64,000 bases of DNA from Nitrospira sp. (lineage in GTDB: Bacteria > Nitrospirota > Nitrospiria > Nitrospirales > Nitrospiraceae): assembly GCA_030692565.1 (NCBI GenBank), contig JAUYAO010000006.1, positions 1-64,000 on the forward strand. Reading direction: 5' to 3'. This document shows positions 34,201 through 36,904 of this stretch, piece by piece. A program made the translations under genes and the position numbers. Each line of letters starts with the position of its first letter. Within the stretch, counting starts at the first letter, position 1. The notes under the pieces are model-generated. The model did no database searches. It saw nothing but the letters and a program-made list of their open reading frames with translations, and was not told the origin of the DNA.

Positions 34201-34566
34201 CTATGGAATCGTTCGGCTTTGCTCATTGGAGAAGGGGCTTTCATTCCCGTTGGTATCGTAGGCCGACACCGCAAAGAAGTAGGTCGCACCCTTCGTCAGA
34301 TTCGTCATCTGATAGGTCGTGGTGGAAGCAGGCAAGGTGGCAATCGGATTTCCGTAGGTCCCAGCGGTTGTCGATCGATAAATCTTATACCCGGCCAGGT
34401 CCGATGCGGCGACCGGATCCCATTGAAACGTCAACGACGCCGTGGCGGCAGGAGCTTGCGCGGCCGGAGGCGCACTGTCGCCCCCTCCCCCGCCGGTACA
34501 CCCACCAAGGACTGCTCCGACAGCCGCCACTATCACCAATCCCAATCCGAACGATGCTCGTACCAC
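34201..34566 (-). CDS. Fibronectin type III lipoprotein
   Basis: A 121-aa lipoprotein with lipobox VLGGC, a Gly-rich spacer and one fibronectin type III domain (LTFQWDPVAASDLAGYKIYRS, then FFAVSAYDTNGNESPFSN). It starts with GTG, preceded by GAGGGAG. A single-domain surface or periplasmic adhesion module; partner unknown. Confidence 0.8.
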   Translation of the reverse strand: MVRASFGLGLVIVAAVGAVLGGCTGGGGGDSAPPAAQAPAATASLTFQWDPVAASDLAGYKIYRSTTAGTYGNPIATLPASTTTYQMTNLTKGATYFFAVSAYDTNGNESPFSNEQSRTIP

Positions 34567-34970: not shown

Positions 34971-36383
34971 ATGGCCCCCGCACAGTCGACACTGGTCCCC
35001 ACACAAGTCCGTCGTCTGTGCGGACTTCTCTTGTCAGGCCTTCTCTTTTTCACCGCCGCGCTTGGAACAACGGGTCTCGCAGAAAGCGACGGATCGATTC
35101 CGGCTCTGGCCCCGACCCCGCTATTCACAACGGCCCCTCCGCAGCGGTCCGCACCGTTGGCCCAGGCAAGCACCCCGCGCAAAGCCAGGGGACGCTGGGT
35201 TCGGGATCAGCGTTCCGTCAACATCACCGCAGACGCGCTCCGTGCCCTCAATCCAATCAGTCCGGCACAACACACCGAATTCACGATCGACCTTTTTTCC
35301 GCCGGCACACAACTAGCCGATCTCAGCCCGGGAAGCGACCCGCAACGAACGCTCCACCACCAAACATGGACGGGACGGTTGAAGCAGGATCAGGACAGCG
35401 ATGTCACGCTTGTCATGAAGGGCGCGGCTGTCGCGGGAACGATCCGAAAGGGGCGCACAATCTATGAGATCAAGCCCAGCGCTGACGGCACCCATGACGT
35501 GACAGAAATCGACAGCGAGTTGCTTCCTAGCGACCACCATCCGGTCCCCGTGAGTCCTGACGAATCGGCAGCGGGAGATGTGGCTACCGGCCTGGCCGCG
35601 CCCATACTTCCCTTCGCCGCAGCCGCAGATAGCAGCACATTGATCGATCTCCTGGCGGTCTACACCACAACCGCGAAGAACGCGAATGGTGGACAAAACG
35701 GCATTGAAGCCCTGATTGCCCTCGGCATTTCTCTGGCGAACACCGCCTTCACCAACAGTCAGATCAACACCCAATTCCGGCTCGTCCATACCGCCGAAAT
35801 CGCGTATCCCGAATCCGGCAACTACAACACGGATTTGAGTCGCCTGCGAAATGCGACGGATGGATTCCTGGATGACGTGCATACGCTGCGGAACACCCAC
35901 AAGGCGGATCTGGTCACGCTGATTGCAGACAACATCGGAGATGCCTGCGGAGTCGCCTACGTCATGAGTTCTGTCAGCCCCAGCTTTGCAAGTTCGGCGT
36001 TCAGTGTGGTCGAAGATGCCTGCATCTCCGGCTACACTCTCGCCCATGAGCTCGGCCACAATATGGGGTCTATGCATGATCGGGCCGAGGGAGGGACCGG
36101 CGCCTACCCCTACTCCTTCGGGCACAAAGAAGCAGGCAAGTTTCGGACGATCATGGCCTATCCCTGCAGTCCCTCCTGTCCGCGTATCAATCATTTCTCA
36201 AACCCCAATGTCAGCTATCAAGGAAGCTGGGTCACCGGCGTAGACCACAACACGAGCCCTGCCACCTCGGCGGACAACGCCAGAGCCTTTACCAATGCCT
36301 TGAGCACCGTGGCGAATTTCCGCAACAGCGGCGATACGACCGCTCCCCCGGCCCCCGCCAATTTCCGGATCATCAGCCCGTAG
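34971..36383 (+). CDS. Secreted reprolysin-like zinc metalloprotease (metzincin)
   Basis: A 470-aa secreted protease. A signal peptide (LCGLLLSGLLFFTAALG) is followed by a propeptide of about 150 residues (SDVTLVMKGAAVAGTI region) and a catalytic domain starting near residue 220 (LIDLLAVYTTTAKN). The zinc site is HELGHNMGSMHD near 360-371, the HExxHxxGxxHD metzincin motif, and the Met-turn is TIMAYP. The start at 34971 has AAGAGGATC; a TTG lies 18 bp upstream. The C terminus (PPAPANFRIISP) may be the start of a lost fibronectin-III module. It is followed by a gene resembling its propeptide. Confidence 0.87.
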   Translation: MAPAQSTLVPTQVRRLCGLLLSGLLFFTAALGTTGLAESDGSIPALAPTPLFTTAPPQRSAPLAQASTPRKARGRWVRDQRSVNITADALRALNPISPAQHTEFTIDLFSAGTQLADLSPGSDPQRTLHHQTWTGRLKQDQDSDVTLVMKGAAVAGTIRKGRTIYEIKPSADGTHDVTEIDSELLPSDHHPVPVSPDESAAGDVATGLAAPILPFAAAADSSTLIDLLAVYTTTAKNANGGQNGIEALIALGISLANTAFTNSQINTQFRLVHTAEIAYPESGNYNTDLSRLRNATDGFLDDVHTLRNTHKADLVTLIADNIGDACGVAYVMSSVSPSFASSAFSVVEDACISGYTLAHELGHNMGSMHDRAEGGTGAYPYSFGHKEAGKFRTIMAYPCSPSCPRINHFSNPNVSYQGSWVTGVDHNTSPATSADNARAFTNALSTVANFRNSGDTTAPPAPANFRIISP

Positions 36384-36406
36384 CCATATGAGAAGGAGTC
36401 TGCTTC

Positions 36407-36904
36407 GTGCGTAATCGAATCACCTGTCGCGGCCTTCTTCGTGTCGGACTGACGGCACTTCTCCTCTGCACCCTCGGCATGGCTCCCCGTCCTTCCTCTG
36501 AAACGCACCTCTGGGAATTGGTCTCTGCGCCCTCGTCTCCCGATCAACGCCAAACGCCCCGTCAACCCTGGATCATCCGGGAGCAGAAAATCCGCCTACA
36601 CCAAACGATCCTGGATGCGCTCCGTGATCCCGCAGCTCCCGTTCCTTCAGGAATCATTCTTGATCTGACCGGCGAGACCAGTCACGAACTGGTCGTCGAT
36701 TCAAAGACTCCGGGTGCGCTTTCAACCACAGTCATTCAAGGCCATGTACAGACAGCCGCCCCTTCCGACATCACCCTCGTCATCAAAGACAGGTCGATGG
36801 CCGGCACGATCCGCATAGACAGACGGGTGTTCAGGATCCAATCCATAGGAGACGGCGAGCACCTCCTCGTTGAACTCGACCCTGAGAAACTCCCGCCCGA
36901 CTGA
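36407..36904 (+). CDS. Free-standing propeptide-like exported protein
   Basis: A 165-aa exported protein (signal peptide LLRVGLTALLLCTLGMA). Its C-terminal 50 residues (SDITLVIKDRSMAGTIRIDRRV and EHLLVELDPEKLPPD) align closely with the propeptide of the upstream metalloprotease (SDVTLVMKGAAVAGTIRKGRTI and VTEIDSELLPSD). It lacks any catalytic domain. It starts with GTG after AAGGAG, 24 bp from the protease stop, so it is in the same operon. A chaperone or inhibitor acting in trans on the protease is a reasonable hypothesis; a decayed duplicate is the alternative. Confidence 0.7.
   Translation: MRNRITCRGLLRVGLTALLLCTLGMAPRPSSETHLWELVSAPSSPDQRQTPRQPWIIREQKIRLHQTILDALRDPAAPVPSGIILDLTGETSHELVVDSKTPGALSTTVIQGHVQTAAPSDITLVIKDRSMAGTIRIDRRVFRIQSIGDGEHLLVELDPEKLPPD

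Follow-up and report, generated by a model that had tools for sequence, protein, structure and literature searches.

A Nitrospira metzincin zymogen and an adjacent free-standing homologue of its propeptide: a candidate propeptide acting in trans

Small proteins encoded with metzincins have been described in Pseudomonas aeruginosa and Acinetobacter. BamI of P. aeruginosa, which forms the PA2782-PA2783 pair with Mep72, is described as an inhibitor of which several stretches are predicted to be natively unfolded; it binds Mep72 and relieves its toxicity in Escherichia coli, and Mep72 is reported to be exported via the type II system (PMC4334185). The same source contrasts BamI with AprI, the inhibitor of AprA in this species, which is also encoded with its metzincin and has a well-defined structure (PMC4334185). 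CpaB of Acinetobacter is described as a membrane-anchored secretion chaperone with an N-terminal anchor, on which the stability and secretion of CpaA depend and the C-terminal tail of which blocks the catalytic site of CpaA (PMC7542363; PDB 6O38). In profragilysin-3, an aspartate-switch zymogen, and in astacins and pro-ADAM17, an aspartate or a cysteine of the propeptide is reported to cap the zinc (PMC9629494). Here we describe a 64,000-nucleotide stretch of a Nitrospira sp. genome (GenBank assembly GCA_030692565.1, contig JAUYAO010000006.1, positions 1 to 64,000 of the forward strand; hereafter the window), in which the gene for a metzincin is followed by a gene for a small protein that is homologous to the propeptide of that protease and has a predicted export signal.

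Nitrospira comprise nitrite oxidisers and comammox organisms. The assembly that holds the window is of 4.17 Mb, and its closest named relatives at the locus are Nitrospira metagenome-assembled genomes and N. moscoviensis. Stand-alone propeptide-like inhibitors are already known for cysteine proteases (MEROPS I29, CTLA-2, crammer and BCPI), as are partner proteins of M72 metzincins. The I29 inhibitors resemble the Nitrospira small protein in being free-standing homologues of a protease propeptide, and they inhibit the mature enzyme, but they concern another protease class and come from animals, and thus work alike without belonging to the same family. In the literature searched (titles and the starts of abstracts), no paper linked BamI to propeptides or described the Nitrospira pair. 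Within that literature, the following are new: the pair itself, a zymogen accompanied by a further copy of its propeptide in trans, the acidic residue with which this copy always ends at the switch column, and the sequence relationship that connects BamI-like proteins with propeptides.

Homology of the small protein and conservation of the pair

In the protease (P0001), an N-terminal export signal (by eye) and a propeptide precede an M12B-type catalytic domain. The enzyme is an M12B-type (adamalysin/reprolysin-like) metzincin, as indicated by its zinc motif, by its Pfam scores (Reprolysin_4, 72.8 bits for a cut-off of 22; Reprolysin_5, 72.6 bits for a cut-off of 27) and by the structural match of the catalytic part. 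H359, E360, H363, G366 and H369 are invariant across 67 proteases, and the start codon is consistent with those of the relatives in the protease alignment (A1). Against the Mep72 equivalog NF052434 the protease scored 141.3 bits, in the catalytic part alone and below the curated cut-off of 645 bits. The small protein (P0002) also has an export signal (by eye). As had been noted in the initial annotation of this DNA, it has no catalytic domain, and neither Pfam nor NCBIfam returned a family for it at E ≤ 1; searches with it yielded no match in plasmids and two matches in the PDB, with E values of 0.87 or worse. Pfam propeptide families were detected neither in the protease nor in the small protein at E ≤ 1, nor in 40 propeptides at E ≤ 0.1. 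The limits given initially for the two open reading frames (ORFs; Table 1) were correct, but the genes, on the same strand, are separated by 23 bp (36384-36406) rather than the 24 bp reported.

In a BLASTP comparison of the whole protease with the whole small protein, residues 18-188 of the former aligned with residues 9-165 of the latter (E 2e-12, 29% identity over 172 aa, a low value). The homology runs from a tryptophan before the propeptide (W76 in the protease, W55 in the small protein) to the end of the small protein and includes the segments SDVTLVMKGAAVAGTIR / SDITLVIKDRSMAGTIR and ELLPSD / EKLPPD, so both stretches that the initial annotation had recognised (SDxTLVxK...xAGTIR and the LLPSD/KLPPD ending) are indeed present in the two proteins. 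A search of the own genome with the small protein retrieved the propeptide at E 1.7e-9, and a profile of 30 small proteins (A2) matched a profile of 40 propeptides (A4) at 99.6% (E 4.2e-24, 119 columns); alignment, which had been proposed as a check, thus bears out the relationship. In the phylogenetic tree, all the Nitrospira small proteins, including those encoded away from a protease, formed a single clade (100/99) separate from the cis propeptides. The copy is therefore old, although the initial description of the small protein as a copy of the protease's own propeptide holds as regards homology.

The conservation of the pair was assessed in two samples, which overlap partly in their genomes and the counts of which were not summed. 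In sample 1, consisting of 295 genomes of the phylum, the small protein was matched in 45 genomes. A full-length protease, defined by a match of 364 bits or more, was present in 27, and all belong to a single family. The small gene was the next gene downstream, on the same strand, for all 27 of these proteases, with gaps of 23 to 164 bp except in genome G189, in which the start assigned automatically to the ORF makes it overlap with the protease. In G189, a second small gene (L082 7942-8430, + strand) was observed about 2.4 kb downstream of the protease, besides the paired copy. Sample 2 consisted of 80 loci of named genomes, 41 of them from outside Nitrospira and 39 from Nitrospira (L094-L129, L132, L136 and L153); L111, titled Nitrosospira, was kept among the 39, as its protease and small gene group with those of Nitrospira, and L135 (Nitrospirales OFTM51) was not. 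The small gene was present at 36 of the 39 Nitrospira loci. Two loci with an intact small gene were scored as paired, one with a split protease (L129) and one with a broken catalytic end (L128), and L136, with a contig edge inside the protease and the small gene on another contig, was scored as unpaired. The complete genome of N. moscoviensis NSP M-1 (L096) contains the pair, with the two genes overlapping by 11 bp.

The C-terminus of the small protein and the predicted switch column of the zymogens

All 50 distinct small genes of sample 1 (27 paired, 22 orphan and the second copy in G189) stop at one column, seven residues past the D of an E-[LIV]-[DN] motif; one G189 gene occurs in two loci, giving 51 rows, and its Q-I-D end was read by eye. 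The last residue is D in 41 of these proteins and E in nine, and it is D in all 36 named paired small genes, a set that partly overlaps sample 1. At the same position, D was found in 39 of 39 Nitrospira zymogens, the window included (a list different from that of the 39 Nitrospira loci). The 55 propeptides of other groups have E (23), C (12), D (9), H (1) or other residues (10) there, so C, D, E or H accounts for 45 of the 55; the columns on either side lack this pattern (18/55 at offset 6 and 10/55 at offset 8), the anchor D itself (offset 0) standing at 50/55. Given the invariant D in Nitrospira and the predominance of C, D, E and H elsewhere, we predict that this column is the zinc "switch" position of the zymogens. 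A cysteine at this column, in a P-x-C context, resembles the cysteine switch of the ADAM proteases. The aspartate recalls the aspartate switch described for astacins and fragilysin-3 (PMC9629494). Related bacterial zymogens in A4 thus vary between Cys, Asp, Glu and, once, His at a single position, which suggests that the chemistry of the zinc switch has been swapped repeatedly within a single protease family.

The small protein thus terminates on the predicted switch residue, past which the zymogen chain continues with a conserved H-P segment and a linker. In known switch zymogens this residue lies in cis, with a cleavable linker after it; its counterpart in the small protein is the last residue of an independent polypeptide.

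The zymogen was modelled with AlphaFold2, using an alignment of 67 sequences, and structural matches to the model were obtained with VIA-align. The model was confident, as judged by the predicted local distance difference test (pLDDT, 84.7) and the predicted template modelling score (pTM, 0.84), and residues 101-190 of the propeptide were mostly above 90. Its closest match in the PDB was CpaA (Z 26.0, 203 residues, root-mean-square deviation (rmsd) 2.0). Profragilysin-3 matched residues 47-445 of the model (Z 20.4, 287 residues, rmsd 4.4) and pro-ADAM17 residues 72-453 (Z 19.8, 296 residues, rmsd 4.6), both alignments covering the propeptide and the catalytic domain. The protease profile also matched the ADAM17 prodomain over about 40 to 48 residues, a match that is weak on its own. 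Structure prediction, as suggested initially for the protease region, thus gave a zymogen in which the arrangement of prodomain and catalytic domain appears to be that of profragilysin-3, the astacins and pro-ADAM17, and, since the model resembles profragilysin-3 and pro-ADAM17, D188 may be expected to contact the zinc in the zymogen. A model of the small protein alone was set aside (mean pLDDT 43.7, pTM 0.27).

On balance we slightly favour the view that the small protein is a trans-acting propeptide, binding in the manner of the cis propeptide, capping the zinc through the acidic residue at its end and guarding the cell against early activation of the protease. It would be exported to the periplasm, as would the cis propeptide, adopt the fold of an ADAM/fragilysin-type prodomain and bind the catalytic domain at the site of the cis propeptide, where its terminal Asp (Glu in some orphans), at the switch position of the zymogen, would cap the catalytic zinc. 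As its chain ends at the switch residue, leaving the protease no linker beyond it to cleave, it would escape the consumption that the cis propeptide undergoes. Protease maturing too early would thereby be kept latent inside the cell and would be released by the small protein after secretion or dilution. Export, docking, zinc capping, inhibition and release are what we infer from several observations, namely the homology, the conserved adjacency, the fixed C-terminus, the chemistry of the switch position, the predicted zymogen fold and the homology of propeptides to BamI-like proteins, to which we turn below. If the C-terminal Asp does cap the zinc, the small protein would be a naturally occurring, gene-encoded inhibitor of M12B-type metzincins, the warhead of which is very simple, and an uncharacterised system based on a secreted protease would exist in Nitrospira.

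BamI-like proteins and free-standing copies outside Nitrospira

In BamI/Mep72, as in the Nitrospira pair, a small partner gene adjoins the gene of a metzincin (M72-type in P. aeruginosa), but bamI lies upstream of the Mep72 gene and the Nitrospira small gene downstream of the protease. We searched for the Mep72 family in 390 genomes of the Pseudomonadales (the order of G648), 27 of which had a match at E ≤ 1e-60 and nine a match over the cut-off. At the nine over-cut-off loci, the match to the Nitrospira catalytic model begins at residue 24-44, and these proteases, with a catalytic domain close behind the signal peptide, thus have no room for a cis propeptide. The Nitrospira protease is by contrast a full zymogen, with a second copy of the propeptide as its partner. 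Mep72-type proteases of the Pseudomonadales often have an ORF of about 230 aa upstream, at the position of bamI in P. aeruginosa. Thirteen such ORFs from 20 loci (L203-L222) were aligned as a BamI-like set (A3), to which, from its gene position, BamI of P. aeruginosa would belong. Six of them lie beside over-cut-off proteases (L203, L204, L206, L208, L209 and L210) and seven beside sub-cut-off relatives. Left out were L207 and L211, which nearly duplicate L206 and L209; L205, for which no ORF upstream was picked; L212, which lacks the catalytic part; and L219, L220 and L222, which have no small ORF upstream.

An hhalign comparison of the BamI-like set with the propeptides gave a match of 95.6% (E 1.2e-8, score 59.4, 109 columns), against control scores of 12.2 for the reversed profile, 16.8 for the best of 100 column shuffles and 22.2 for the best of 100 block shuffles. 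On these profile comparisons, the BamI-like partners of Mep72 proteases are distantly homologous to propeptides. In the PDB, the BamI-like profile matched CpaB at E 2.3e-4, the next match being titin at 2.3e-3 and worse; no direct similarity was detected between CpaB and the Nitrospira small protein or between CpaB and the propeptide profile. In the Acinetobacter pair, CpaB is distantly similar to the BamI-like proteins, and CpaA is the closest PDB match of the zymogen model. The present findings offer a testable structural rationale for the action of BamI and perhaps CpaB, which look like propeptides moved to a separate gene.

The match to CpaB raises the question of whether the small protein is a dedicated folding and secretion chaperone, which would bind and stabilise the protease in the periplasm and pass it to the type II secretion system, with the block of the active site as a by-product. 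The dependence of CpaA on CpaB (PMC7542363) and the exit of Mep72 by the type II system (PMC4334185) are consistent with such a role, as is the presence of GspD-like secretins in the genome, the matches of which were all under the family cut-off (best 290 vs 351 bits). However, intramolecular chaperoning is usually the task of the cis propeptide, which this protease possesses, the partner is missing from two genomes that encode the protease (L099 and L118), and most of the A2 small proteins show an A-x-A-like signal-peptide end (by eye), unlike CpaB with its N-terminal membrane anchor. We therefore regard a purely CpaB-like role as unlikely, although the chaperone role and that of the trans propeptide may both be true together.

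Free-standing copies of the propeptide were also found outside Nitrospira. In L135, from another family of the Nitrospirales, the copy is downstream of the protease, and in L147 and L171 (Acidobacteria) it is upstream, like bamI; among the 41 non-Nitrospira loci, adjoining copies were observed in these three only, within the locus DNA. A further copy, in L184/L263 (Acidobacteria), lies tail to tail with the protease and ends in ...FPRD. The L135 copy paired with its own propeptide in the tree (100/96), and those of L147 and L171 fell in an Acidobacteria clade (98/97). The tree thus requires more than one origin of free-standing copies, although its details are unsure owing to the small number of columns. 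No separate copy beside the protease was apparent in the gene tables for the Photobacterium, Pseudoalteromonas and Rhizobium plasmid loci, the last of which has another metalloprotease as upstream neighbour. Several candidates were not counted: L156 and L262 were frameshift artefacts, the propeptide being encoded in one frame and the catalytic part in another, L259 was ambiguous, with tandem propeptides in overlapping ORFs, L264 runs to the contig end, L261 yields only an 87-aa fragment, and L266 and L267 were weak short frames. Propeptide-like exported proteins without a catalytic domain in the locus DNA were also observed in two Acidobacteria genomes, in L186 (1435-2199, − strand) and L265 (3538-4302, − strand) of G427 and in L260 (3511-4056, − strand) of G469; L186/L265 has Cys at the switch position (LPEC) and, taken together with L260, Cys occurs at or near the switch, so these proteins are possibly orphan cysteine-switch versions.

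Orphan small genes and the role of the small protein

Several observations weigh against the small protein being a trans-acting propeptide with a role in latency. First, the protease already carries a complete cis propeptide. Second, L099 and L118 keep the protease, and no small gene was found in these genomes, the completeness of which is not stated, beyond the cis propeptide; absence of the small gene from relatives that keep the protease, which the initial annotation had named as evidence against its self-protection model, thus occurs, but at two of the 39 named Nitrospira loci. Third, 18 of the 45 genomes with the small gene have no full-length protease, three of them (G153, G208 and G276) holding a distant relative of the catalytic domain, which is not what a pure self-protection system predicts, and these orphan genes look selected. 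Fourth, dN/dS (the ratio of nonsynonymous to synonymous substitution rates) is 0.35 for the small gene and 0.16 for the protease in the same genome pair. Finally, the BamI-like set matched the small proteins directly at 5%, the reversed A2-vs-A4 control giving 5.3%, and in L135, L147 and L171 the end of the copy does not coincide precisely with the switch residue. The L099 and L118 proteases (Nitrospira RSF11 and RSF48) sit at a methyltransferase locus, and the L118 ORF has an altered C-terminal part of 741 aa, which may be an assembly problem.

The low identity to the cis propeptide and the higher dN/dS of the small gene would also fit a duplicated propeptide that plays no part in latency and has, for instance, become a periplasmic binding protein while keeping the fold. 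We consider this very improbable, given that the C-terminus lies at the switch column and is acidic in all 50 distinct genes and that detached copies also adjoin proteases in L135, L147, L171 and L184.

The orphan genes were examined further. One occurs in the genome of the window itself (G000:C54:41476-41925; L007 5462-6010, − strand), encoding 182 aa with the end ESKE, and adjoins a TfoX-like gene and a methyltransferase gene. Eight of the 22 orphan loci end in [SP]KE, all of them beside a methyltransferase gene and a TfoX-like gene (by motif), and two more adjoin the methyltransferase (10/22 in all). This methyltransferase is also encoded upstream of the protease, at 11 of 37 named loci, so a single locus carries both the protease and the small gene in certain lineages but only the small gene in other lineages. 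The dN/dS of nine orphan pairs was 0.15-0.51 (0.15-0.40 without the 0.51 pair, which has a dS of 0.03), and the small protein thus probably serves a useful purpose even where the protease is absent.

Such a function could be that of a former protease partner that now mainly blocks foreign metzincins, of competitors or predators, at the cell envelope, its adjacency to the protease being partly historical. The orphan genes, which are open and were found in so many genomes, point in this direction, and the shared methyltransferase suggests that the small gene may have outlived the protease. Nevertheless, every full-length protease of sample 1 has the small gene directly downstream, no foreign target is known, and the protease may have been either lost or gained, and this explanation therefore seems to us rather improbable as the main role. 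A wider scenario, which we put forward as speculative and more doubtful than the trans propeptide itself, is that ADAM/fragilysin-type propeptides have repeatedly split off as separate latency proteins, BamI and CpaB included. The Nitrospira protein would then be an unprocessable "aspartate switch in trans", with a complete propeptide fold that breaks off at the zinc-capping residue and a C-terminal carboxylate as the zinc cap, that has outlived the protease in many lineages, where it would guard the envelope against other metzincins.

The features of the pair are listed in Table 1. Scans for promoters and terminators gave no match and are uninformative either way.

Table 1. Features of the protease gene and the small gene in the window
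Feature	Positions	Strand	Basis
Protease gene, 470 aa	34971..36383	+	ATG at 34971, stop at 36383; ORF and translation
cis propeptide domain, about residues 70-198, beta-rich	35178..35564	+	Alignments A1 and A4; AlphaFold2 model
Codon of D188, predicted zinc-switch residue (E179-I-D181 + 7)	35532..35534	+	Column composition
Zinc motif HELGHNMGSMH, residues 359-369	36045..36077	+	Sequence
AAGGAG, ribosome-binding-like, 8 nt 5' of the GTG of the small gene	36393..36398	+	Read from sequence
Small gene, 165 aa, predicted exported free-standing propeptide homologue	36407..36904	+	GTG at 36407, stop at 36904; ORF, homology, conserved adjacency
Codon of the C-terminal Asp D165, homologous to the predicted switch residue D188; stop codon immediately 3'	36899..36901	+	50/50 distinct genes

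An ORF of 121 aa that is lipoprotein-like and contains fibronectin-III-like sequence was observed at 34201-34566 (− strand), oriented divergently from the protease gene, and a similar ORF of 134 aa is likewise divergent to the protease in G189 (L044 798-1202, − strand). The C-terminus of the protease, DTTAPPAPANFRIISP, resembles a linker preceding a fibronectin-III-like domain.
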